64,000 nt of DNA from Phycisphaeraceae bacterium (GTDB taxonomy: Bacteria; Planctomycetota; Phycisphaerae; Phycisphaerales; UBA1924): positions 2,831,649 to 2,895,648 of the forward strand of contig CP075368.1 in the NCBI GenBank assembly GCA_019454185.1. The letters are read 5' to 3'. Each line of letters begins with the position of its first letter. Position 1 is the stretch's first letter. Positions 13,197 through 28,300 of the stretch are shown one piece after another. Below the pieces are notes generated by a model, which made no database searches, had not been told where the DNA came from, and saw only the letters and a list, made by a program, of their open reading frames with translations. The translations under genes were made by a program, and so were the position numbers.

Positions 13197-14618
13197 TTAC
13201 TTCCCGGCGTCTTGTGAGAGCCGCCTCGCCAGCGCGAAGGCCAGTTCGAGGGCCTGGTGGTAGTTCAGACGGGGGTCGCAGAGCGTGGCGTAGTTGGTGT
13301 GCAGGTTGTCCTCGGTGATGTCGGTTGCGCCGCCGACACACTCCGTCACGTCCTCGCCCGTCAGTTCGACGTGGATGCCGCCCATGTGGGTCCCCGCGCC
13401 ACGGAGCGCGTCGTAGGTCGTCTCGAGTTCGGCACGGATCGCGTCGAACGAGCGAGTCTTGAGCCCCGAAGCCGTCGAGACGGTGTTGCCGTGCATCGGG
13501 TCGCAGATCCAGAGCACGGGCGAACCGGCACCGCGGACACCCTCGACGAGCGCGGGGATGCGCTCGGCGGCACGGCCCGCGCCGAGGCGCGTGATCAGCA
13601 CGATCTTGCCGCGCTCGCCCGTCGGATTCAGCACCCGGACGAGGTCGCGCACATCGGCGGGCGAGGTCGCGGGCCCGATCTTGATCCCCACGGGGTTCTG
13701 GATGCCGCGGAAGTACTCGACGTGCGCGCCGTCGATCTGACGCGTGCGCTCGCCGATCCACGGCAGGTGGGTGGAGAGGTTGTAATGTCCCTCGCGGCGC
13801 GGCACGCGCCGCGTCTGGGCCGACTCGTACAGGAGACTCAGCCCCTCGTGGCTCGTGAAGAACTCGACGCGTGTCAGCTCTTCGACACGGGCCTCGCCCA
13901 GCACCTCCATGAAGCGCAGCCCGTCGGCGAGCGAGCGCGTCATCTGCTCGTACTGGGCCCGAAGGTCCGCGGGCAGCGAGGCGTGGCGCATGAACGAGAG
14001 ATCCCAGTACTCCGGGTGGTGGATGTCGGCGAAGCCGCCCTCGACCAGCGCGCGGATGAAGTTCAGCGTCAACGCCGCGTGCTGGTACGCGCGGACGAGC
14101 AGGTGCGGGTTGGGCGTCCGCGCCTCGGGTGTGAAGGGCGCGCCGTTCACGAGATCCCCGAAGTAGCTCGGGAGCGACACCCGAGCGCCGTTGATCTCGC
14201 GCGTCTCGATCGCGCTGGAGCGCGGCTTGGCGTACTGGCCCGCGAATCGCCCGATCCGGACCACGGGCTTCCGACCGCCCCAGACCAGCGCGAGCGACAT
14301 CTGCATCAGGATCTTGAGCTTGTTGGTGATCGCGCCGGGCGTGCAGTCGTCCAGCGTCTCGGCGCAGTCGCCCCCTTGCAGCACGAACCGCCTCCCCTCC
14401 TGGGCGTCGGCGATCTCCTGCTTGAGTTTCTCGATCTCCCACGACGTGACCAGGGGCGGGAGCGAGCCCAGCTTCGCGACCTCGCGCTCGACCGCGTTGG
14501 CGTCCGGGTACTCGATCCGCTGCGCCTCGACGCGGCTCCGCCACGAGTCCGGGCTCCATGGGCGTGTGCCCGCGCCCGGGGCTGCGCTCTCCGAACCCGG
14601 TTGGACTGGCGTCGTCAT
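13197..14618 (-). CDS. aroF: 3-deoxy-7-phosphoheptulonate synthase, class II
   Basis: 473 residues catalysing the first step of the shikimate pathway, condensation of phosphoenolpyruvate with erythrose 4-phosphate. It matches class II (plant/Mycobacterium type) DAHP synthases by length and motifs: WxPxSWR near the start, VLQGGDCAE, KPVVRIGRFAGQYAKPR, THLPWIGERTR, NPVGIKIGP, LWICDPMHGNT and the C-terminal TECVGGATDI. The start MTTPVQPG at 14618 is chosen over an in-frame ATG 39 codons upstream because the family begins here. It appears to be a single-gene transcription unit divergent from the histone-like gene. The symbol is by function; class II genes are named variously. Confidence 0.95.
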   Translation of the reverse strand: MTTPVQPGSESAAPGAGTRPWSPDSWRSRVEAQRIEYPDANAVEREVAKLGSLPPLVTSWEIEKLKQEIADAQEGRRFVLQGGDCAETLDDCTPGAITNKLKILMQMSLALVWGGRKPVVRIGRFAGQYAKPRSSAIETREINGARVSLPSYFGDLVNGAPFTPEARTPNPHLLVRAYQHAALTLNFIRALVEGGFADIHHPEYWDLSFMRHASLPADLRAQYEQMTRSLADGLRFMEVLGEARVEELTRVEFFTSHEGLSLLYESAQTRRVPRREGHYNLSTHLPWIGERTRQIDGAHVEYFRGIQNPVGIKIGPATSPADVRDLVRVLNPTGERGKIVLITRLGAGRAAERIPALVEGVRGAGSPVLWICDPMHGNTVSTASGLKTRSFDAIRAELETTYDALRGAGTHMGGIHVELTGEDVTECVGGATDITEDNLHTNYATLCDPRLNYHQALELAFALARRLSQDAGK

Positions 14619-14967
14619 GGTTCTCTCGAATCGACCTTCCATCGCATCGGGGTGAGGCAACAACGCCCGACACCCGGCCCGCCGGTCAGAGCGCGCACAA
14701 GAGAATGGTTGCGCGTGTGACCTCGAAGGGCGCAACTTTGGCCCGGTTTCGCATCAATCCTCTGATTTTTCCGTCTTTTCCGGTGCACTGCTCAACTCGG
14801 GGGTGCTGTGGTGACGATGGGCGAGGTCTGCCGCGGGTTATCGCGGCGACGCCGTGGGGCGTTCGAAGGTCGGCCGAGTGGCCCGGCCCGTCCCGAAGGC
14901 AGCAGTCCGAGGCCGGCGCACCAGTCGGCCCTCACGTTTGATCCCGACCGGGATCAGGAGCAAGCCA
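14619..14967. other. Divergent promoter region
   Basis: A 349-bp gap between the minus-strand DAHP synthase and the plus-strand histone-like gene. An A/T-richer island at about 14755-14790 stands out from the GC-rich surroundings and is the best place for promoters. A clear AGGAG lies at 14956-14960 before the histone-like start. No RNA gene is recognised. Confidence 0.4.
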
Positions 14968-15288
14968 ATGCCGACCCGTACCCGCCGTACCGCCCGCAAG
15001 ACGACCGCTCGCAAGAGCCCCGCCAAGCGGACGAAATCGCGCAAGACCACCGCCCGTAAGACGACCGCTCGCAAGAGCCCGGCCCGCAAGACGACGGCCC
15101 GCACGTCTTCCTGGAAGAACTCTTTCAAGAAGACGACCAAGGCCAAGAAGAGCACCGCTCGCAAGAGCGCGAAGAAGAGCACGGCCCGCAAGACGACCGC
15201 TCGCAAGACCACGGCCCGCAAGACCGCGCCCAAGACCTTCTCCTTCAACCGCTCGATCAACACCGGCGCTCGTCGTCGCGCCGCCTGA
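14968..15288 (+). CDS. Histone H1-like lysine-rich DNA-binding protein
   Basis: 106 residues, almost wholly composed of Lys, Arg, Thr, Ala and Ser in repeats such as TARKTTARKSPAK, with no globular part. It matches bacterial H1-like nucleoid proteins (Hc1-like tails) known from planctomycetes, chlamydiae and some proteobacteria. The start at 14968 follows AGGAG by 7 nt; the upstream in-frame ATG at 14854 would add an unrelated sequence. The role is presumably DNA compaction by charge neutralisation. The repeats are near-identical at DNA level, so length variation between strains is expected. Confidence 0.8.
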   Translation: MPTRTRRTARKTTARKSPAKRTKSRKTTARKTTARKSPARKTTARTSSWKNSFKKTTKAKKSTARKSAKKSTARKTTARKTTARKTAPKTFSFNRSINTGARRRAA

Positions 15289-15407
15289 GCCGCACACGAC
15301 TCCGCTCGCCCGCCCACGGATGCGCGGCGCGATGCGAAGAACATGGGTCCAGCCCCCCGCAGGGACGCAACGGCGGCTGATCCGATCTTCACAATCTATC
15401 GCACGAC

Positions 15408-15433
15408 ACGGCCGCGGCACCCCCGCGGCCGTT
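15408..15433 (+). terminator. Intrinsic terminator after the histone-like gene
   Basis: ACGGCCGCGG and CCGCGGCCGT form a perfect 10-bp stem with a 5-nt loop, followed by TTCGTCGTTTA. It separates the histone-like gene from the CRISPR leader. Confidence 0.7.
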
Positions 15434-15547
15434 CGTCGTTTAGGGAGCGGGTGGGACGACGCGGAACTTGACTGGGCAGGGGACTCGGTCAGCGTTTTTG
15501 ATTTTTGCGGCGGCCCTCGCTTGGGACTACGTCCCTTCGCTCGGGCC
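15434..15547 (+). promoter_or_regulatory. CRISPR leader-side region with hairpin at the first repeat
   Basis: This contains TTGACT at 15468-15473, a T-rich stretch (TTTTTGATTTTT, about 15495-15506) and an inverted repeat GGCGGCCC ... GGGCCGCC with an inner GGGAC/GTCCC pair, whose right arm runs into the first three bases of repeat 1 (about 15508-15550). Its position upstream of the plus-strand array makes it the candidate leader. Confidence 0.45.
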
Positions 15548-18500
15548 GCCGTGGTCTGCCGCGAAGGGCCGCTCTGGTACACTAGAGATCAGCGGCGCGC
15601 CAACGATCATGCCGCCGTGGTCTGCCGCGAAGGGCCGCTCTGGTACACTGGGATCACGGTGCGCGTCGCTGGAGGCGATGCCGTGGTCTGCCGCGAAGGG
15701 CCGCTCTGGTACACTTTCGTCGTGTCCGTGATCACGCGCGAGCCGGCCGTGGTCTGCCGCGAAGGGCCGCTCTGGTACACTATGCAGGGGGTGCGGCAGC
15801 GGATCGAGGAGGCCGTGGTCTGCCGCGAAGGGCCGCTCTGGTACACTCGATCGCCAGCAGCGCACCACCCCCGAAGGGCCGTGGTCTGCCGCGAAGGGCC
15901 GCTCTGGTACACTTCCGCTCGGACATGATTCGGAAAGTCGGACGCCGTGGTCTGCCGCGAAGGGCCGCTCTGGTACACTCGGCCCGGTCGTCAACGGGCG
16001 CGTCGAGTGGCCGTGGTCTGCCGCGAAGGGCCGCTCTGGTACACTCAGCAGCGATCACATCTGACGCTACTCCGCGCCGTGGTCTGCCGCGAAGGGCCGC
16101 TCTGGTACACTGCCGAATCCTCGTGTTGACTTCATGCCCCAGCCGTGGTCTGCCGCGAAGGGCCGCTCTGGTACACTGCGTCTGATTCGATGCCCTGCTT
16201 CACGAAAGCCGTGGTCTGCCGCGAAGGGCCGCTCTGGTACACTGCGGCCTCGCGGCGATGCCGCAACAACGGTGCCGTGGTCTGCCGCGAAGGGCCGCTC
16301 TGGTACACTGACGTGCCGCGTGAGTGGCTACGCGCGTTCGCCGTGGTCTGCCGCGAAGGGCCGCTCTGGTACACTACGATCTACAACAAGCGCGAAGAGT
16401 GTACCGCCGTGGTCTGCCGCGAAGGGCCGCTCTGGTACACTGACGTGCCGCGTGAGTGGCTACGCGCGTTCGCCGTGGTCTGCCGCGAAGGGCCGCTCTG
16501 GTACACTTCGTCGGTGCCGGCTTGTCGCCACGCCGCTGCCGTGGTCTGCCGCGAAGGGCCGCTCTGGTACACTAGAGGCCCGAATCGGCGATCGATGATC
16601 GTGGCCGTGGTCTGCCGCGAAGGGCCGCTCTGGTACACTCCTACAGGCACCTACGACGATCCGGGGATCGCCGTGGTCTGCCGCGAAGGGCCGCTCTGGT
16701 ACACTGCGAGTAGTCTTCGCATGTCAGGCCGCGATGCCGTGGTCTGCCGCGAAGGGCCGCTCTGGTACACTTCTCGCCAGGTCCACCAACCGATAGCAGC
16801 GGCCGTGGTCTGCCGCGAAGGGCCGCTCTGGTACACTCGACAAGCCGCACGGCCGCCCCATCTGGCGGCCGTGGTCTGCCGCGAAGGGCCGCTCTGGTAC
16901 ACTTCGAAGCAAATCCTTTTGTTCGCCCAGAAAGCCGTGGTCTGCCGCGAAGGGCCGCTCTGGTACACTTTGCACCGTTGATCGGTTCGTAATAATTTGG
17001 CCGTGGTCTGCCGCGAAGGGCCGCTCTGGTACACTGATGTCCAAGAGATACCCGTGCGACCCGCTGCCGTGGTCTGCCGCGAAGGGCCGCTCTGGTACAC
17101 TTGTCGCCAGCACCCACGATCGTGTACTTCCGCCGTGGTCTGCCGCGAAGGGCCGCTCTGGTACACTGCGTCCTGGCAGGACCGTTGAGTCCAGAACGCC
17201 GTGGTCTGCCGCGAAGGGCCGCTCTGGTACACTGAGTTTGCGCCTGCGCGGCCAAGTGCTTTTGCCGTGGTCTGCCGCGAAGGGCCGCTCTGGTACACTG
17301 CGGAGATGTTCGGGCGGGTGGAAGAAGTGGCCGTGGTCTGCCGCGAAGGGCCGCTCTGGTACACTCCGCTCGCTCGGCGGCGTGTCCGGCGACGAGCCGT
17401 GGTCTGCCGCGAAGGGCCGCTCTGGTACACTTTTCGGCTACGGCGTAGGTGTGGTCGAGAGGCCGTGGTCTGCCGCGAAGGGCCGCTCTGGTACACTCCG
17501 GATCATCGCGGAAGCGCGTGAACGCCCGCCGTGGTCTGCCGCGAAGGGCCGCTCTGGTACACTCATGTTCGCGATGATGGTTTCGGCTCTGTTGCCGTGG
17601 TCTGCCGCGAAGGGCCGCTCTGGTACACTCGTCACGGAGTCATACGGCATCGGGGCAATGCCGTGGTCTGCCGCGAAGGGCCGCTCTGGTACACTGTATG
17701 GATGTCGAACAAGCGAGGCGATCACGCCGTGGTCTGCCGCGAAGGGCCGCTCTGGTACACTGACCCGACACGATGCACTCGCGTTCCCGTCGCCGTGGTC
17801 TGCCGCGAAGGGCCGCTCTGGTACACTTCCGTCAAGGTCGATACCGACGGCAAACTCGCCGTGGTCTGCCGCGAAGGGCCGCTCTGGTACACTAGTTCCG
17901 CAAGGTTGAGCCCCAGCGATGACGCCGTGGTCTGCCGCGAAGGGCCGCTCTGGTACACTGGAAACGCGCCCGGCACGAACCGCGTGGAGGCCGTGGTCTG
18001 CCGCGAAGGGCCGCTCTGGTACACTGTATGTACGGACGGGCGGGGCAGAGTTTGCGCCGTGGTCTGCCGCGAAGGGCCGCTCTGGTACACTCCGCCTGAA
18101 TCGCCACCTGAGCGGCTTTGGGCCGTGGTCTGCCGCGAAGGGCCGCTCTGGTACACTGCCAGCGTCGGACGGAAGGTGATTACGAGCGCCGTGGTCTGCC
18201 GCGAAGGGCCGCTCTGGTACACTGCAGTATGCAGAATGCACGCCGTTGTCGGTGCCGTGGTCTGCCGCGAAGGGCCGCTCTGGTACACTAAACCCGAGGA
18301 TCGAGATTGAGATGCCACCGCCGTGGTCTGCCGCGAAGGGCCGCTCTGGTACACTCGTAGTCGAGAAGGCGGATGAAGGTGGCCAGCCGTGGTCTGCCGC
18401 GAAGGGCCGCTCTGGTACACTGGTAGCGGTTCGCGGTGCTTTGGTGCTGACGCCGTGGTCTGCCGCGAAGGGCCGCTCTGGTACACTGGCATCACTCAGC

Positions 18501-19213
18501 CCCGCGATGGTCTCGGGGCCGTGGTCTGCCGCGAAGGGCCGCTCTGGTACACTCTGCCGGTTTGCAAGCAGGTACGTCCAGTCGCCGTGGTCTGCCGCGA
18601 AGGGCCGCTCTGGTACACTCCCCCGCGTGATCGGCGACGTGCTGAACATGCCGTGGTCTGCCGCGAAGGGCCGCTCTGGTACACTCCATTGCGGCATCGA
18701 CATCATCCCCGAGTTGCCGTGGTCTGCCGCGAAGGGCCGCTCTGGTACACTCCGGGGTGGGTGGAGCCGCAGCCCGCCTGTGCCGTGGTCTGCCGCGAAG
18801 GGCCGCTCTGGTACACTGCGATTGCAGCAACGCCGCGAGCGTCTCGTGCCGTGGTCTGCCGCGAAGGGCCGCTCTGGTACACTCGTGCGCTTGCGTTGCC
18901 GGTGTCCGACCTTGCCGTGGTCTGCCGCGAAGGGCCGCTCTGGTACACTCCCCCGCGTGATCGGCGACGTGCTGAACATGCCGTGGTCTGCCGCGAAGGG
19001 CCGCTCTGGTACACTATGATCGATGTGCAGGCGATGACCGCCATGGCCGTGGTCTGCCGCGAAGGGCCGCTCTGGTACACTCAGGGCGAGCGGCGAGCGT
19101 GGTCATGCGGCGCCGTGGTCTGCCGCGAAGGGCCGCTCTGGTACACTGTGGAGCGTGCCGAGCCCGTCCTGTACGGCGCCGTGGTCTGCCGCGAAGGGCC
19201 GCTCTGGTACACT
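15548..19213 (+). CRISPR. CRISPR array, 56 repeats of 36 bp and 55 spacers of 30 bp
   Basis: The repeat begins GCCGTGGTCTGCCGCG and ends CCGCTCTGGTACACT. Every repeat that I checked sits on an exact 66-bp period from 15548 to the last copy at 19178-19213, and copies look identical, including both terminal ones. Two spacers occur twice: at 16310 and 16442, and at 18620 and 18950. Plus-strand transcription is inferred from pairing with the tracrRNA, whose 3' anti-repeat part matches the 5' part of this strand's repeat, and from the extended -10 motif TGGTACACT at the repeat end. The array converges on the cas2 3' end, 49 bp away. Confidence 0.98.
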
Positions 19214-19262
19214 ACCCTGATCGGAATGTCTTCTGCAAGCAAGACTTACGACAGGGTCACGG

Positions 19263-19658
19263 CTAGAAAAGCATGAGTTGGGGAGGTGGTTCCTCTGCCG
19301 GACCCGCACTTTTGCCGCGGTAGACCTCCATCTTTCCGAACTGGCGATCGGTGATCGCGACGAGCCGGACCTGTCCGTGATCGGGCAGCACACTTCGCAC
19401 TTCTGCCTTGATCCCATCGGCGAACTCCTCGCTCGAGCAATGGCGAGCATACACGGAGAACTGGAGCATCGTGAACCCGCGCAGGAGCAGGTCGCGCCGG
19501 AATCGCGCCGCCCGCTTCTTCTCTGCCTTTGTGACGACGGGAAGGTCGAACATCGCAAAGAGCCACATCGCACGATACCCCGAGAACAGCGGATACTCAT
19601 CGTCTGGCGTGAAGCGCGGTTCAGCATGCTTCGCGCTGCGATTCCGCCTCCTTCTCAC
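19263..19658 (-). CDS. cas2: CRISPR-associated endonuclease Cas2
   Basis: 131 residues. The ferredoxin-like core begins at WLFAMFDLPV, with the conserved Asp at residue 38, and continues through FRRDLLLRGFTMLQFSVYAR; a second half VRLVAITDRQFGKMEVY follows. A basic N-terminal extension of about 30 residues (RRRRNRSAK) precedes the core. Cas2 dimers bridge Cas1 dimers in the spacer-integration complex. The start overlaps the cas1 stop by four bases (ATGA), so cas9-cas1-cas2 is one translationally coupled operon on the minus strand. Confidence 0.95.
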   Translation of the reverse strand: MRRRRNRSAKHAEPRFTPDDEYPLFSGYRAMWLFAMFDLPVVTKAEKKRAARFRRDLLLRGFTMLQFSVYARHCSSEEFADGIKAEVRSVLPDHGQVRLVAITDRQFGKMEVYRGKSAGPAEEPPPQLMLF

Positions 19659-20593
19659 GATCGCACCAGCCCGTCAGGAAAGAACACACGGAGCTTGGAC
19701 ACATCGTCATCGCTACAGAACGCGCGACCGAGAGAGGCCGCGGAGCGTCCGATCCAGTCCATCACCGTTCTGGATTCTCCCTCGTGCGTGAGTCGTTCGT
19801 GGAGCACACCGATGATCTGCTGCTTTGTGTGTGCATCGAGTTCCACGCCCGGTCCGTGCTGACCGACGATCTCGGCGACGGCATCGTCGATCATCACGCG
19901 CCACGGTTCCATGAGATCATCGGCGAGGCAGTACGGGTTTGACCGCCCGTGGTGGCAGACCCCGAGCGAGGGGTGAAGCCCATTGGCGCAGATCGCGCGA
20001 CCGACCGCGGCCCGGACCACGGCGTAGCCGTAGTTCAAGAGACGGTTCTGGTCCGGTGCATCACGCCGGCGCCGAAAGTTCGAATCTCCGAAGAGGCGCG
20101 GCCAGTAGCGTTGTGCGGCGTGCGCTTCGGCGTTCCCGGCATCGCCCGATCGCACCCCTGCCGCGATTGCGAGCAGGCCGCCGTCATCGCCGATCCGAAT
20201 CTGGAGCAGCGATGCCTGGGCCATGATCTTGGCCCGCACGATGGACTGCCAGATCCGCTTCTTTCGTGGCTCCGTCACGGAGGCCTGCGCGATCATCCGC
20301 TCGGTCTGGAGCGTGTTGGCTGAGAGCGGGAGCATCAAGCCGTTGGGGAGCATCGAATCGTCGCAGACAAGCACCGCAGCGCCCTCGGCCATCAGCCCGG
20401 AGAGCACGGATTGCGTGCATGTCACGCGCGCGTTGGCGAGAATCAACGCGGCGATCTCAGCCAGCGGCGTGGAGAGGTCCGGCATCCCTTCGCGCTTGAC
20501 GATGAGTTGGCCGTACCGCACGCTGAGGTACGCCCCATCGTTGGAGAAGTCGAGGATGCGTTCGGCGCCTGAACCCATATGCCGCTCAGTCAT
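19655..20593 (-). CDS. cas1: CRISPR-associated endonuclease Cas1 (type II)
   Basis: 312 residues, the integrase subunit for new spacers. Likely metal-binding residues are E156 (NAEAHAAQRYW), H214 (LGVCHHGRSNPY) and D226 (LADDLMEPW), in the usual type II layout. The start at 20593 overlaps the cas9 3' end by 8 bp; an alternative ATG five codons in (MGSGAERIL) is possible. No cas4 or csn2 follows, which together with the Cas9 size indicates subtype II-C. Confidence 0.95.
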   Translation of the reverse strand: MTERHMGSGAERILDFSNDGAYLSVRYGQLIVKREGMPDLSTPLAEIAALILANARVTCTQSVLSGLMAEGAAVLVCDDSMLPNGLMLPLSANTLQTERMIAQASVTEPRKKRIWQSIVRAKIMAQASLLQIRIGDDGGLLAIAAGVRSGDAGNAEAHAAQRYWPRLFGDSNFRRRRDAPDQNRLLNYGYAVVRAAVGRAICANGLHPSLGVCHHGRSNPYCLADDLMEPWRVMIDDAVAEIVGQHGPGVELDAHTKQQIIGVLHERLTHEGESRTVMDWIGRSAASLGRAFCSDDDVSKLRVFFPDGLVRS

Positions 20594-23500
20594 TGGCTCG
20601 GCGGATCTCGCCGAGATAGGTCACGAGTACTTTGCTAGCAGCGAGCTTGCGCATAGAATCGCCCGAACCCCTGATACGAATCCGCTCGCGTTGCCGCTGC
20701 GGTGATGGTCTTGCATCATGGGTTGGCAGGACCTCGATGTCCCCCTCACTGATGGAGAGGACACGAAAGACGCGACGCGTCGCCGGGCCTCTCGGATCAT
20801 CCATCTCGATGTGCTCGCCCTTCGCGAGCGAGAAGAGGAACCTTCGCCCTTCCCCGCCGTCGCGGCAGACGATCGGCTGTTTCGCCGCCTTGCGGCGGTG
20901 GGCTTCCATGAGCGTGACAGGCGTGTGCTCCCAGCGTGTGCGCCCCTTCTCGTCTGTCACCTCCCACACTTCCGTGTGGTGGTTGCTGCCGAGTTTGACG
21001 TACCGCTCCTGCGATCCCTTCCCGATCCGATCCGGCTTGGCATCGACTTCGACGCGGACACGCCGAAGGGGGACCATGCGCCCGTCGTACCCTCGGACCA
21101 TCGGTGCGTTCTCCGGAACGGCGAAGATCTGCGAGAGTTGCTGCGGTGTCGGATCCGGTCGTCCGAGTTCAGTGAGCTTTGCCCGGATCGCGGCGAGCGC
21201 TCTCTTGTCGACCAGCCGCCCCTCTTCGATATCCTTTGGAGTGAGTTTCTGGAGTTCTTTCCGGACTCGGTGCTTCGCACCAATGGGCTTGCTGTAGATC
21301 GTCGCTTCGTGCAACGCGCCTCGGGCACGCTTCGAGATCTGATTCGAGACGATCACGGATGAGATCAGCCGCTCAACCTGATCGCGGAGTCCGGGCAGCG
21401 GCTCATCCACCGCGTCGAACGCACGTCGGGCGAAGCGGGCGTCCGCGCTCGCCGCGGCACGCTGGAGCAGTTGAACGGCTCGCCCATCGGTAAGCCCGAT
21501 GACGATCGCGTCGATCGCATGATGCCTGTGGTCGTCACGATTCTTATCCGGTGTGTCGCCGAGCAGTCCGGAGAGACCCCAGCCGGTGCGGAGCCACGCG
21601 GTCAGTCCGCCGCTCGTAGCCTGTATGCGTAGATTGCCCTCAAGGTCGCTTCGGCCGCCGTAGAGCAGGGCGAGGTAGTCCGCTGCGAGTTTGGCGATGT
21701 ATCGCGTGTCGCTGAGGTGGCGATTGGTGAACCCCTCGGGAATCTCCTGTGCGAGGAAGCGTTCGAGTTTCGCTCTGCGGGTCCGGAGGTCGCCCTTGAA
21801 TGCACTGACGCGCTCGATGATCTCGCCGTAACGTCCATCGTCGGCGCCATAGGCCTCAAACGGTGTGCGGTTGTGCTTTCTCGCGATGTTCTCCTCGTGG
21901 TAGCAGAGCGTCTTGTTGAGGAAGCTGTCGTCGAGCGAGCGGGATCGCGGCCAGATGTGCTCGATGTGGAACTGGGCACTTGCGCCGAAGAGCGTGCGCC
22001 ACTCGATCTGCCTGCCTGTGTATGGGCAGCGCCAGCCGCATTCGTCCGCGAGAAGCACCTTCTCGATGTCTTCGCGCGATGGGCGGCTGATATGGGCCTC
22101 TTTCTCGATCTGTTTGGCGATGCCATCGCGATGCTTGGCGCGTGCGGTGTTCGTCCTGTGGATCTGTTCGCGACGATGGGCGCCGTGCTTGAGCTCTCGC
22201 GCGAGCTCGATCCTGATTCGAGCCGGCTTGCCGTGCTCTCGTACCAGTGCGTTCACGAGCTTGCGGAGTTCCGTGAGCGCGCGGATGACGCCAGGATTGC
22301 GCAGGTCCTCGAACGCGTCGGTGACCGGAGGCAGTGAGTCCGCAGATTCAACAGCCCTGAATGACTCTGGGAACTCTCGCTTTCGCGCTTCGGCATACGT
22401 GACACCCTCGCGCATGTGTGGCATCAGACGGGCGATGGCCTTGAGGGAGAGAGATGCGTAACCCTCTTCGAGCTCGATCGCACTCAGTGCCGCGGCCTGC
22501 TCCTGCGAGAATCCGTAGTGCCGGGCCATGCGCCTCTGGCATGCTTCCGGCGTACGGAGTGATCGAAGGTCGTGGACAAGCGCGTCCCGAGTCTCTTCAG
22601 GCAAGGAATCGAAGCCCTCGCCGATCACGTCGCGGAGCTTGGCATCAGTGCGGTTGCCGATGATCTCTTTCTCGCCATCGTCTTCGATATTGAACCTGCT
22701 TCGCTTGCCGAGAGCGAGGGCCTTCTTCGCCTGTGTGGCCTTCGTGTCACCGGCCCGCTCAAGAATCGTGATGAGAGCGCGACGCTCATCTTGCGTGAGC
22801 GACCGCGCGGGAGCATCGTTCTCTGATACTTCGACGTTGTTTACGGCCTGAAGGATGCGAAATGATTGGAAATCACGAGACGCGATCGGGGCGCGACGCT
22901 CCGTCGGAATCAGACTGCACCTGCCGATCGTGTGCTTCTGGCTCTTGAGGGGCCTTTGCCAGAACAACGCCCGGCGGATCTCCTTGCGTGCATCCTCCGA
23001 AAGTCCGAGATGCGACTGCTGTTTCTGCCAGATCGCATCAAACTCCTGCTCGTACATCTCGCGACCGGTCCAGCGATGCCGGATCCTCACCTCGTCTGGC
23101 GTCAGAGATGCGAGGTAGGCGCCGAGCGTGGGGGGATCGTGAGCCGCGATCTTGATGGCGAGGTCCCCGATGGCGGCCTTCACCTTGCTCTTCTCATCTG
23201 CTTTCGCTCGGGCATCGGCACGCCGGTTCGACTTGAATCCACGACGCTGGCCGAGTTGGTAGATGGCGCGTCCGAAGTCGAGCCGATCTATCTCACGGAT
23301 CGCTGCGGCAGCGCGGATGCGGTATGTCCACCGCTGTTGATCATCATGAGTACCGACCCATCGCGGCATGATCTGTCGGTCGAGATTGCCGAGAAAGCGG
23401 CATACATCATCGGCCGTACGGAGTTCGGTGTCGGGCTGCGGGAGCAAGCCGTGCCTGACCAGTGCCTGTATCAGTGCTCGCTTGCGTCGCCACCGTCGCC

Positions 23501-23732
23501 AGGCCTGCCTGCGTTGCTGTCGAGCGGTACGCCTCGCGGTGTTGCGTGGCTGATCCGCTCCCCGAAGCCGATCGAGGTCGGTCCCGTCGGTTCCTGGCTC
23601 AAAGAGATGGGAGCCCGTCCTCACGACCTGCTTCGGCACGCCGGTCGAGTCGAGACCGACAACAGACCAACCGATCGACGCAACCCCCAAGTCGATGCCG
23701 AGGACCCATAAGCTGTCCTTGTACCCGTTCAT
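20586..23732 (-). CDS. cas9: CRISPR-associated endonuclease Cas9, subtype II-C
   Basis: 1048 residues, in the compact II-C range. Domains in order: RuvC-I (VLGIDLGVASIGW, D14), an Arg-rich bridge helix (ARRTARQQRRQAWRRWRRKR, about residues 65-85), a recognition lobe, RuvC-II (RIRIELARELK, E near 509), HNH (HIEHIWPRSRSLDDSFLNK, His near 592, and the KHN following), RuvC-III (HHAIDAIVIGL, near 738-745) and a C-terminal PAM-interacting region. All nuclease residues are present, so it should be active. The start MNGYKD at 23732 is preferred over an ATG 12 codons upstream because GGGAGGA precedes it by 5-7 nt and that upstream segment overlaps the tracrRNA promoter. Confidence 0.97.
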   Translation of the reverse strand: MNGYKDSLWVLGIDLGVASIGWSVVGLDSTGVPKQVVRTGSHLFEPGTDGTDLDRLRGADQPRNTARRTARQQRRQAWRRWRRKRALIQALVRHGLLPQPDTELRTADDVCRFLGNLDRQIMPRWVGTHDDQQRWTYRIRAAAAIREIDRLDFGRAIYQLGQRRGFKSNRRADARAKADEKSKVKAAIGDLAIKIAAHDPPTLGAYLASLTPDEVRIRHRWTGREMYEQEFDAIWQKQQSHLGLSEDARKEIRRALFWQRPLKSQKHTIGRCSLIPTERRAPIASRDFQSFRILQAVNNVEVSENDAPARSLTQDERRALITILERAGDTKATQAKKALALGKRSRFNIEDDGEKEIIGNRTDAKLRDVIGEGFDSLPEETRDALVHDLRSLRTPEACQRRMARHYGFSQEQAAALSAIELEEGYASLSLKAIARLMPHMREGVTYAEARKREFPESFRAVESADSLPPVTDAFEDLRNPGVIRALTELRKLVNALVREHGKPARIRIELARELKHGAHRREQIHRTNTARAKHRDGIAKQIEKEAHISRPSREDIEKVLLADECGWRCPYTGRQIEWRTLFGASAQFHIEHIWPRSRSLDDSFLNKTLCYHEENIARKHNRTPFEAYGADDGRYGEIIERVSAFKGDLRTRRAKLERFLAQEIPEGFTNRHLSDTRYIAKLAADYLALLYGGRSDLEGNLRIQATSGGLTAWLRTGWGLSGLLGDTPDKNRDDHRHHAIDAIVIGLTDGRAVQLLQRAAASADARFARRAFDAVDEPLPGLRDQVERLISSVIVSNQISKRARGALHEATIYSKPIGAKHRVRKELQKLTPKDIEEGRLVDKRALAAIRAKLTELGRPDPTPQQLSQIFAVPENAPMVRGYDGRMVPLRRVRVEVDAKPDRIGKGSQERYVKLGSNHHTEVWEVTDEKGRTRWEHTPVTLMEAHRRKAAKQPIVCRDGGEGRRFLFSLAKGEHIEMDDPRGPATRRVFRVLSISEGDIEVLPTHDARPSPQRQRERIRIRGSGDSMRKLAASKVLVTYLGEIRRAND

Positions 23733-23745
23733 GCGTTCCTCCCGC

Positions 23746-23775
23746 TTGACTGCGACACAGCGCATCAACTAATAT
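23746..23775 (+). promoter_or_regulatory. tracrRNA promoter
   Basis: TTGACT (23746-23751), an 18-bp spacer, then TAATAT (23770-23775), reading rightward. Transcription would start about 23782, exactly at the first base of the anti-repeat. It lies immediately upstream of the cas9 ribosome-binding site on the opposite strand. Confidence 0.7.
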
Positions 23776-23784
23776 AGCAGTAGT

Positions 23785-23801
23785 GTACCAGAGCGGCCCT
23801 T
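23785..23801 (-). promoter_or_regulatory. Repeat-derived extended -10 facing cas9
   Basis: Read on the minus strand, the anti-repeat is a partial CRISPR repeat ending CTCTGGTACACT, the same extended -10 found in the array repeats. It points into cas9, and TATATT lies 6 nt further on as a second candidate -10. Either could drive the cas9-cas1-cas2 operon. Confidence 0.45.
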
Positions 23802-23856
23802 CCGTCTTATCACGGTAAGGAAATCCGCGCGGGGCAAGGTCTGCGGGCCTCCCACG

Positions 23857-23880
23857 AACGCCCATCAATGGGCGTTTCTT
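23857..23880 (+). terminator. Intrinsic terminator of tracrRNA
   Basis: AACGCCCAT and ATGGGCGTT form a 9-bp stem with a minimal loop, followed by TTTCTTATT. In II-C guides the last hairpin also serves as the 3' tail recognised by Cas9. Confidence 0.8.
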
Positions 23881-23959
23881 ATTGGCGATGTCTCTGGAGC
23901 ATTCAGGACGAGACACCACTCGCTCACGCTCGTGGTGCCCCAGTGCCTCCGTCGCTTCC

Positions 23960-25321
23960 CTACCTCCGGATCAACCCCAACTGCCGGTACTTCTCCAGGT
24001 ACTTCTTGTAGAGCGCGGTGTGCTTGGTGTTCATGTCGAGCGTCTTGCCCTGGATGAACGCCATCTCCGTGTGCGTGCGGACCTCCAGCGGGTCGCCATC
24101 GGTCACGATCAGCGTCGCGTCCTTGCCGATCTCCAACGAGCCGACGCGCCCCGACACACCGAGGATCTGCGCCGGCGTGAGCGTCACGCTGCGAACCGCC
24201 GCGTCGTGCGTCAGCCCCATCGGCTCGCCGTGGGCCAGCGCCTGCGCGACGTGGTAGGGGAGGTTGCGCTCGTGCGGGGTCTCCTCGCCGCTGGCGATCG
24301 CCCAGCGGACGCCCGCCTTCTCCAGCAGCGCGGGCTGCGTATACGCCTCGTTATAAGGAGAGTCGGTGCGCTTGGGGAACTTATGCGTCGCGACGATGAT
24401 CACCGGCACATCATGCTTCTTGAGAAGATCGGTCACAAGGTGCGCGTCGCGCCCGCCGACGATGACGGGCCGCAGCTTCCGCTCGACCGCCCAACGCACC
24501 GCGGCCTCGATCTGCTCCACCTCGTTCACCATCAGATAGACGGGATTCTGCGTGCCGCCGCTCTCACCCGCCTCGGGCAGCACGCCCAGCACACCCTCCA
24601 GCCGTGCATCCACCGGCGCGGCTCCGTCCCTCGCGCGCAGCTCACGGTACGTGCGGCTGCGCTTGAACAGGTCCTCGAGCGCGTCGAACGCCTCGTCCAG
24701 GCGACGCTGCGCGGCCTCGTCCGCGCGCCCGAAGATGTTCTGCCCCTGACGCGTCTGCGGGAAGCCCACGACCAGCCCGACATCCGCGTCGACGGTCATG
24801 TCCTCGTAGGTCCACCCCTCCATCTGCATCACGCTCACACGCCCGGGGATCAACCCGCCCGTCGGGAAGACGCCCTGCAGCAGGATGCCGTTCGCACGGG
24901 TGACAGGGATCAGCGTCGAGTCGGGATTGACAGCGACCGCGGCGTAGACCTCCGGCGTTGTGCCGCCCGTCTCGCGATGGTCCTCCGTGGCGCGGATCGA
25001 GCCGATCTCCGACAGACCCATCTGCGAGTACGCGCCGAAGAGGCCGGGATAGACGTGCTTGCCCTTCGCCTCGATCACGAGCGTGCCGAGCGGCAGCACG
25101 CCGTCGCCGGGTCCGACCGACGTGATCCTGCCCTTCTCGAACAGCACGTGGCCGTTCGGGATCGACGGGCCGCTCACCGGATGGATCGTCGCCTTGGTGA
25201 TCGCGATGGGGCGGTTCTGGGGCGGGGCCTTGATGCCCAGGTCCTGCGCGCACGCCGCGGCGGCGATCGCCCCGCCCGCCACGATCGCCAGTGTTCTCTT
25301 GATGATCGTGTTGGTTCTCAT
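23960..25321 (-). CDS. Secreted amidohydrolase-like protein lacking the HxH metal site
   Basis: 453 residues with a signal peptide (MRTNTIIKRTLAIVAGGAIAAAACAQ). The amidohydrolase-superfamily outline is clear: an N-terminal beta sandwich (ITKATIHPVSGPSIPNG), the segment before the barrel (HVYPGLFGAYSQMGL) and the C-terminal return (LGVSGRVGSLEIGKDATLIVTDGDP). The metal-binding HxH that normally follows PGLID is replaced by AYS, so hydrolase activity is doubtful. Its start overlaps the stop of the larger upstream amidohydrolase by four bases, so the two are probably co-translated and may form a complex with one catalytic and one non-catalytic partner. Confidence 0.8.
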   Translation of the reverse strand: MRTNTIIKRTLAIVAGGAIAAAACAQDLGIKAPPQNRPIAITKATIHPVSGPSIPNGHVLFEKGRITSVGPGDGVLPLGTLVIEAKGKHVYPGLFGAYSQMGLSEIGSIRATEDHRETGGTTPEVYAAVAVNPDSTLIPVTRANGILLQGVFPTGGLIPGRVSVMQMEGWTYEDMTVDADVGLVVGFPQTRQGQNIFGRADEAAQRRLDEAFDALEDLFKRSRTYRELRARDGAAPVDARLEGVLGVLPEAGESGGTQNPVYLMVNEVEQIEAAVRWAVERKLRPVIVGGRDAHLVTDLLKKHDVPVIIVATHKFPKRTDSPYNEAYTQPALLEKAGVRWAIASGEETPHERNLPYHVAQALAHGEPMGLTHDAAVRSVTLTPAQILGVSGRVGSLEIGKDATLIVTDGDPLEVRTHTEMAFIQGKTLDMNTKHTALYKKYLEKYRQLGLIRR

Positions 25322-28300
25322 CGCGCACCTCCCGCAACGCCGTCCTCATACCGGATCAGCGCGTCCATCTGCATCATGCCGCAATCGCCTGCGGTGGAGC
25401 CGACGCCCCACATGCCCGCCGTGTACTCGTTCATCGTCTCGGGGCGGGGTCCGCGCCGTCTGCCGCCGCCCGGAGGCCCGCCCGCCGCCTGCGCGTCCGC
25501 GCTCTCGCCGTCGGGCTTCTTCGGCTTGGCGTCGAGCGCGAGGATCTTCTTGATGAGCCGCGTGCGCTCTGCCGCGGCGTGCCGCTGCAGCTCCGCATCC
25601 CTCGCGAGCGAGAACATCTCGCGTCCGTCGACATACGTCGCCTCGGCGCGGGCCGTGGCGGTCAGCGGATCGCGCGACCAGATGACGACATCCGCGTCCT
25701 TGCCGACCTCGAGCGAGCCGGTCCGCCCGTCGATCATGAGTTGCTTCGCCGGGTTGATGGTGATGAACTTGAGGGCCTCGGCGGGGGGCACGTTCCCGTA
25801 GCGAACGGCCTTGGCCGCCTCGATGTTCATGTGCGTCGCGAGCTGGTCGTCGTCGCTGTTGAACGAGACGTTCACGCCGGCAAAGTGCATGAGCGCGCCG
25901 TTGTAGGGGATCGCGTCCTGCACCTCGACCTTGAAGTTCCACCAGTCGCTGAATGCCGAAGCGCCGATCGCGACCTCCTTGATCGCCTCCGCGACCTTGT
26001 ACCCTTCCAGCACATGCTGGAAGGTGCCGATACGAAAGCCGAAGTCCTTCGCGACGCGACAGAGCATCAGGATCTCATCCTGCCGGTAGCTGTGGCAGTG
26101 AACGAGGCGATCGCCGCGCAGGATCTCCCAGAGGGCCTCGAGTTGGAGGTCGCGGCGCGGCGCGGTGCCGGGCTTGTCCGACCCGCCGCTCGCGTTCCAC
26201 TTCGTCCACGCCTCGCCGTACTCCTTGGCCTGTTGGAAGCGATCCCGCAGGATCGCCTCGACGCCCATGCGCGTCTGCGGGTATCTGGTGCTCCCCTGTC
26301 CCGAGTTTGACTGCTTGACGTTCTCGCCCAGCGCGAACTTGATGCCGGGCTTGGCATCCTCGACGTGCATGTCGTCCGGGTGCCTCACGCCCCAGCGGAG
26401 CTTGAGGGTCTGGCTCTGGCCGCCGATCGGATTCGCCGAGCCGTGCAACTGGTTCGCAGCGACAAGCCCGCCCGCCAGCTGGCGGTACCAGTTGATCGTG
26501 TCGGGATCGGTCGTGTCGCCGATGGCGCACTCCGAGGTGATGTTGGTCGCGAACTCGTTGACGCCCCAGCGGAAGAGCCCGGTGTGCGAGTGGCAGTCGA
26601 TCAGCCCGGGCGTCACGTGCTTGCCCGTCGCGTCGATGACGGTGTACGAGTCGTCGAAGCGCGGCATCGACGCGCTCGGCCCGACGTACACGATCTTCCC
26701 GCCCGAGAAGAGCACCGCGCCGTTCTCGATGATCCCGGCATCCGCGCTCGTCCAGACCGTCGCGTTGGTGATCGCGACGTTCCCCTGCGCGGGCATCTCT
26801 CTGATCGCGAACGGCCCGAAGGGATATCCCGGAAGGTCGGGCGTCTCCGCGGGCTTCTCCTCATCGTCCGACGCTTTCTTGCGGGCCTTCCATGTGTGGA
26901 CCGTCCCATCCGGCATGATCGACCGGCCGACCATCTCGTCGTTCGAGATCGTCGCAGTGTCCCTCACGATGCCGGGCTCGCCGAAGGGCCCGTTCTCGTA
27001 GGCGAACGAGATCTTCCCCTCTTCGATGACCACGTCGGTCGCGACGCTCCTGGCCTCGCCGATGTGGATCGTCATCTCGCCCTTGTCGGTGATCTCCGCG
27101 CGCGGCAGGTCGGGCGCATCGGGGAGCACGGGCCTTCCATCCGCTTCGGTCACCATCCATGTGCCCGCGATCTTCTGAGCGGGGGTCTTCGCGGTCTCGG
27201 CATTGCCGGCGCGTCTGGAGCCGGTAAAGGGCATCGTGCCGACGCCTGGGATCATCACTCTTCCAACGATCCCATCGCCGATCAGCGTCGCCGTCACGAC
27301 GATGGAGGATGTCTCGGTGCCCTCCGTGATGTCCACGACATACGACAGCACACCGTTCCGGTACGCGACGTTCCGGGCACGCTCGCCACCCGATTTCTTT
27401 CCTTCCGCGTCCGCCTTCTCCTCGTTCTTGACGCTCACCTTCCCGTCGTCGCCGACCTCGACGATGATCGCGCCGTCGAACGACTCCCCCATCCCGAACG
27501 TGTAATCCCACGTCCCCGCGATGCCTTTGGGCGTCTCCGGCGTGATCTCGTAACGCACGCCGTCCACCCACACGTCGCGGATCTTCGACTTCTTCGCGAA
27601 GATCGGCCCGTCGGCCACGATCAGGTTCGCGACCTTCCCCTTCTCGACCGTTCCGAGCATCGCGTCGGCGCCCAGCATCTTTGCGGGGTTGGTCGTCAGC
27701 ATCGCCAAGGCGCGATCCTCTTTCAGTCCGTGGTTGATCGCCTTGCGCAGGTTGCCGGCAAAGTCGCGACGCGACTCCAGCTCGCTCGACGTCAGCGCGA
27801 CCAGCAGCCCCTTCTCGTCCAATCGCCTCGGGTTCGTCGGATGCTGCTCCCACGACATCAGGTCGCGCAGGTCGATCTCATCCGCCTTTGAGATCGAGTC
27901 CACCTGCGGCGTTCTCGGGAAGCGAAGCGGGATGATCGTCGGGTTGCCGTTGGCCGCGATCGCATCCAGACGCTTGTACTCATTGCCGGATCCGATCAGG
28001 ATCGTCGGTCTGCCGAACTCCTGCCCGATCTTCGCTGCGCGGAGCGACTCCAGCTCGTGCTCCACATCGAACGCCAGCGGCACACTCTTGTCCGCGAGCG
28101 CGTCGAGACACGACCAGGGGTCTGTCGAGACGCCGCGCTTCAGCTGATCCGCGCGGTGGTCCGCGTCCAGAAGCGTCTGCCTCACGAGCGCGATCGCACC
28201 CATCTGGCTCGACGGGTAGACGCGGAACCCCGCCTCACCCGACTTGATCGACGCCGCCTGATAGATGGCTTTCCTGTAGACGGGCGGACGATCCGCGCTC

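Follow-up and report, generated by a model that had tools for sequence, protein, structure and literature searches.

Genes for trans-activating RNAs (tracrRNAs) of clustered regularly interspaced short palindromic repeat (CRISPR) systems have been predicted before in type II-C loci, upstream of the cas genes and complete with a promoter, a terminator, and a segment complementary to the repeat (PMC6199352), and a catalogue of 79 Cas9 orthologs reports that the position and orientation of the tracrRNA gene and the modules of the RNA are conserved within clades (PMC7606464). In the minimal type II system of Campylobacter jejuni, the repeats end in GGTAAAAT and the CRISPR RNAs (crRNAs) start at the fifth base of the spacer, from promoters that lie inside the repeats (PMC3656092). 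Here we describe a stretch of 64,000 nucleotides (nt), which we call the window, from the closed 3,800,083-base genome of a Phycisphaeraceae bacterium (contig CP075368.1, positions 2,831,649 to 2,895,648), in which positions 23746-23880 of the forward strand are almost certainly a tracrRNA gene belonging to a type II-C-like CRISPR-Cas9 system. The gene resembles those of type II-C tracrRNAs encoded upstream of the cas genes, such as that of Haemophilus parainfluenzae (PMC6199352): a lone RNA complementary to the repeat is encoded upstream of cas9 and has a promoter and a terminator of its own. It differs from the type II-C tracrRNAs described in that source in two respects: its sequence belongs to a clade that comprises Planctomycetota, Acidobacteria, and others, and its predicted start falls exactly on the first base of the anti-repeat. 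Its position and orientation are conserved within its clade, as in the 79-ortholog catalogue (PMC7606464), the main text of which contains no word starting with 'planctomyc'; our literature search, confined to openly licensed papers, found none on the tracrRNA of this lineage. The tracrRNA is well supported but ordinary, and the same RNA occurs at the same position in related bacteria.

The anti-repeat lies outside the array, is complementary to the repeat, and is read from the strand antisense to it. Co-folding of the repeat with the tracrRNA, a check proposed in an earlier, sequence-only reading of this DNA, gives -86.6 kcal/mol and a duplex of 21 base pairs (bp), a loop, and 8 bp. The upper stem consists of 21 uninterrupted Watson-Crick pairs (AGTGTACCAGAGCGGCCCTTC), perfect as that reading had it and one pair longer than the 20 it counted. 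The asymmetric mismatch bulge that it placed next is present as an internal loop of 7 nt of repeat and 6 nt of tracrRNA, inside which a few weak pairs are possible, and the pairing that it drew between CACGGT and the 5' end of the repeat exists but reaches further, to 8 bp formed by ATCACGGT with GCCGTGGT (two G-U pairs among them), of which CACGGT is the last six bases. The same reading had named a better anti-repeat elsewhere in the genome as the result that would tell against it, and none turned up: a search of the whole 3.80 megabases with the first 18 bases of the anti-repeat, allowing at most three mismatches, returned a single forward match, the tracrRNA anti-repeat itself, and 57 reverse matches, of which 56 are the repeats (no mismatches) and one is a stray (three mismatches). 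This single forward match also bears on whether the RNA might instead be a regulator resembling the scaRNAs (small CRISPR/Cas-associated RNAs), which would run in the same sense as the repeat and which occupy similar positions in some type II loci (PMC6199352). We consider this very improbable, because the strand that is transcribed complements the repeat, the property by which the same source recognizes a tracrRNA, and because the system would have no tracrRNA anywhere in the genome if the anti-repeat at 23782 were not one.

In its sequence the gene also carries its own promoter and an intrinsic terminator. When both strands of the window were scanned with a simple sigma70 matrix, TTGACT-18-TAATAT scored 11.4, a value exceeded by just one other sigma70-type site in the 64 kilobases (five sites reach 9), and its predicted start, 7 nt past the -10 box, is position 23782, the first base of the anti-repeat, just where the sequence-only reading had put it. 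At the other end, the RNA from 23782 to 23880 comes to 99 nt, in agreement with the length expected earlier. The terminator proposed there is present as well, with a stem of 8 bp in the minimum-energy fold, followed by TCTTATT, rather than the proposed 9 bp, which are reached only when an outer G-U pair is counted. Nine relatives (eight of the 48 tracrRNA loci described below and L012, a locus without an array) went into a covariance model from which the window and its sister genome, the Cas9 proteins of which are 95% identical, were left out; the model scores 88.1 bits at 23782-23882 (E 6e-21 in a search of the window). The 20 other matches up to E 5 all score 19.9 bits or less and all lie inside the array, and across the genome the tracrRNA locus is the only strong match; within the genus, two of four genomes, this one included, have a strong match to the model.

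For the comparison with relatives, 150 genomes of the family were searched, 38 of which had a match to the window Cas9, and 20 places, the window's own among them, were taken further; to these we added the best 80 of 494 loci confirmed in a collection of genome contigs (genome_contigs), giving 100 loci, some of which are the same contig from two sources. An array consensus was obtained for 62 loci, a readable cas9 start for 60 of these (in the two left out, the start lies off or near the contig end), and an anti-repeat agreeing at 15 or more of 20 positions for 49. With duplicates collapsed, there are 46 unique pairs of repeat and anti-repeat, 47 unique promoter regions, and, including L041, 48 loci for terminators. 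The loci are phylogenetically non-independent, and one of them, L128, is doubtful, its anti-repeat being 410 nt away and the better match being on the opposite strand.

Repeat and anti-repeat change together across these relatives. The 46 anti-repeats match their own repeats at 865 of 920 positions, compared with a mean of 589 in 10,000 permutations (standard deviation 12.5, maximum 639), and each of them agrees with the repeat of its own locus more closely than with the other repeats on average. The lower stem, placed at the best position within a 20-nt range for true and permuted repeats alike, forms 329 of 344 pairs in 43 loci (permuted mean 285, maximum 303), and in every case AAG or AAA comes next. 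In 39 of the 47 promoter regions, the best upstream -10 box has its last base 6-8 nt ahead of the first base of the anti-repeat, most often at 7 nt (23 loci), so that the predicted start at that base is characteristic of the clade and no mere coincidence in the window; the mean promoter score is 11.4 versus 4.3 for shuffled sequence, and the best upstream site exceeds the mean of its own shuffles in 46 of 47 loci. Eight loci depart from this spacing, with offsets of 3, 9, 10, 12, and 28, and the site upstream of L094 is weak (score 2.7). Four loci (L041, L073, L075, and L077) have a first motif match upstream of cas9 and, a few bases on, a second, better anti-repeat-like start, the first match being probably just part of the promoter region. 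A terminator was detected in 44 of the 48 loci, compared with 25 of 240 shuffles. The complete tracrRNA gene proposed by the sequence-only reading is thus borne out: every element that it named is present and conserved, from the covarying anti-repeat and the promoter at its fixed distance to the terminator and the recovery by a held-out model, and these elements, their pairing, conservation, and covariation can be seen directly in the DNA.

Several observations weigh on the other side. The tracrRNA is known here from sequence alone. A scan of 14000-26000 with Rfam gave no match up to E 1. RNAalifold, applied to 26 diverse tracrRNAs of the 48, found only three conserved pairs, all in the terminator, because the tail aligns poorly, and the nexus fold therefore rests mainly on single-sequence folding and the nine-sequence model. 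Finally, in 11 of the 60 loci (L084, L087, L093, L097, L100, L102, L108, L112, L122, L127, and L131) the stretch searched contains no anti-repeat that reaches 15/20, so the arrangement is not universal. A decayed or silent copy of the repeat, as opposed to an expressed tracrRNA, would agree with the first of these points, and we give it very little credence, because the promoter, both stems, the terminator, and the spacings are conserved and co-vary in relatives and because the sister genome (G120) retains the tracrRNA at 86.7 bits. Six of the loci listed above, from Lentisphaerae/Lentisphaeria (L087, L093, L097, L100, L102, and L112), have repeats that end in TGCTATATT, and in some of these just a truncated anti-repeat, such as ACTCTACAAGTCC, is seen upstream of cas9, which suggests that the duplex is much shorter there.

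As judged from homology, the tracrRNA would be transcribed and would guide the window Cas9. RNA polymerase with the housekeeping sigma factor would start at 23782 or within one or two bases of it, and transcription would end near 23880, at the hairpin. The repeat portion of each crRNA would then be bound by the 5' half of the RNA through the 21 bp, the loop, and the 8 bp; on the model of known systems, the long upper stem may be cleaved by RNase III, and Cas9 would hold the lower stem, the AAG, and the nexus. Processing, loading of Cas9, and cutting of DNA are the steps that we would expect to follow.

The tracrRNA gene is linked to cas9 in a compact type II-C-like CRISPR-Cas9 locus, cas9-cas1-cas2 (Table 1), in a window with 65% guanine plus cytosine (GC). 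Type II-C loci are expected to have a cas1 of TIGR03639, three cas genes, and an array transcribed toward the cas genes, as here. Between the array and the tracrRNA gene the only cas open reading frames (ORFs) are cas9, cas1, and cas2, with no csn2 or cas4, a count that holds for this interval, as no genome-wide search for cas4 and csn2 was made and the scan left out the genes to the left of the array. The Cas9 has HNH (HNH_4) and RuvC-III (RuvC_III) domains; it aligns with ten relatives at 46-95% identity, and the top-scoring related solved structures are Cas9 chains of 1055-1092 amino acids (aa). A minus-strand ORF of 174 aa at 19103-19627, which was initially taken as cas2, has no family match in NCBIfam or Pfam and was rejected in favor of the true cas2 at 19263-19658, which it overlaps while extending through the last repeats of the array. 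In the array, 53 of the 55 spacers are distinct (numbered from 1, spacer 12 equals 14 and 47 equals 52), and as a clue to array polarity we looked for spacers common to the window array (55) and that of the sister genome (11) and found none. By eye, a long GC-rich inverted repeat (CGGCGGCCC ... GGGCCGCCG) at 15510-15551 abuts the first CRISPR repeat, at the edge of the array far from the cas genes.

Table 1. Features of the tracrRNA gene and its locus, in window coordinates.
Feature	Position	Strand	Description
-35 box TTGACT	23746..23751	+	within cas9 5' leader region, just upstream of the complement of the cas9 Shine-Dalgarno sequence (23737-23742)
-10 box TAATAT	23770..23775	+	18-nt spacer from -35 box; predicted +1 at 23782
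Anti-repeat, upper stem	23782..23802	+	21 bases, perfect complement of repeat positions 16-36
Internal loop, tracrRNA side	23803..23808	+	6 nt opposite 7 nt of repeat
Anti-repeat, lower stem ATCACGGT	23809..23816	+	pairs with repeat positions 1-8; AAG next
Nexus-like stem-loop region	23828..23856	+	predicted by folding and covariance model
Intrinsic terminator	23857..23882	+	8-bp stem, 4-nt loop, T-rich tail
Extended -10-like TGGTACACT	23782..23790	-	opposite strand of anti-repeat, facing cas9; candidate cas9 promoter
cas9	20586..23732	-	1048 aa, ATG at 23732; TIGR01865, 610 bits
cas1, type II	19655..20593	-	TIGR03639
cas2	19263..19658	-	TIGR01573; 131-aa frame
CRISPR array	15548..19213	+	56 identical 36-nt repeats ending in TGGTACACT; 55 spacers, each exactly 30 nt

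The end of the window repeats, TGGTACACT, resembles an extended -10 box, the sequence feature of repeat-borne crRNA promoters like those of Campylobacter and Neisseria. The likeness to the minimal type II system of C. jejuni (PMC3656092) takes in these extended -10-like repeat ends (GGTAAAAT there), a tracrRNA complementary to the repeat, and the presence of three cas proteins only; it differs in that transcription from each repeat was measured there, at spacer position five, whereas in the window it is predicted. Repeats end in TANANT in all 62 loci with an array consensus, the window included (57 as found and five after trimming one or two trailing bases), the end being TACACT in 41 of the 62, and 14 of the 62 have TG at the extended position. 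Among the 46 unique pairs, the last base of the repeat is always T, and nine of the anti-repeats have a changed base opposite it; a force other than pairing may therefore keep this T. Promoter function may be that force, which is the reason we prefer, and spacer integration may be another.

Because the repeats end in a -10-like TANANT, the other strand of the anti-repeat points such a box at cas9, in the window at 50 nt upstream of the ATG, and the tracrRNA gene might also house a cas9 promoter built on the repeat's own -10 box. The divergent starts of cas9 and the tracrRNA would then lie about 7 bp apart, and their interlocked promoters would admit one polymerase at a time. We regard such an arrangement as doubtful. 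Counted on both strands of the window, TGnTAnAnT has 56 occurrences within the array and five elsewhere, and two of those five face cas9 from just upstream on the minus strand (23790 and 23779), but the motif at 23779 is absent, by eye, from the locus of the sister genome (L038), and a good -35 box for a minus-strand promoter was looked for in the window anti-repeat and not found. From -40 to +160 across the 47 loci, the mean minus-strand -10 score peaks at 4.8 at the first anti-repeat base, with the next value at 0.3, although this peak is expected regardless of promoter function, since the anti-repeat must complement a repeat ending in TANANT. In 42 of 47 loci, the anti-repeat is found 28-91 nt upstream of where cas9 is predicted to start, and in L045, L049, and L061 a large plus-strand ORF starts 162-171 nt past the start of the anti-repeat, leaving scant room for a separate cas9 promoter. 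However, the last T of the would-be cas9 -10 box is lost in nine of 46 anti-repeats while the repeat retains it in 46 of 46, a loss that resembles fraying of the duplex end and not a kept promoter. The orientation of the gene to the right of the tracrRNA, tried as another clue, showed no preference (23 versus 23, from rough longest-ORF calls) and was set aside, and among the openly licensed papers we found none on a cas9 promoter within an anti-repeat. Conservation gives no firm support to a nested cas9 promoter, and such a promoter is possible.

The tracrRNA provides a reliable dual-RNA scaffold for this lineage of 1048-aa Cas9 proteins, which allows direct tests of the nuclease. A further outcome is a testable idea on how transcription of cas9 and of the tracrRNA may be coupled. 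In its broadest form, a shared element would operate throughout this large clade, in which the -10 box at the repeat end would drive the crRNAs and its copy on the back strand of the anti-repeat would drive cas9, interlocked with the tracrRNA promoter. We think this unlikely; if it were true, the tracrRNA, the helper of the guide, and the Cas9 nuclease would compete for polymerase at a single site.
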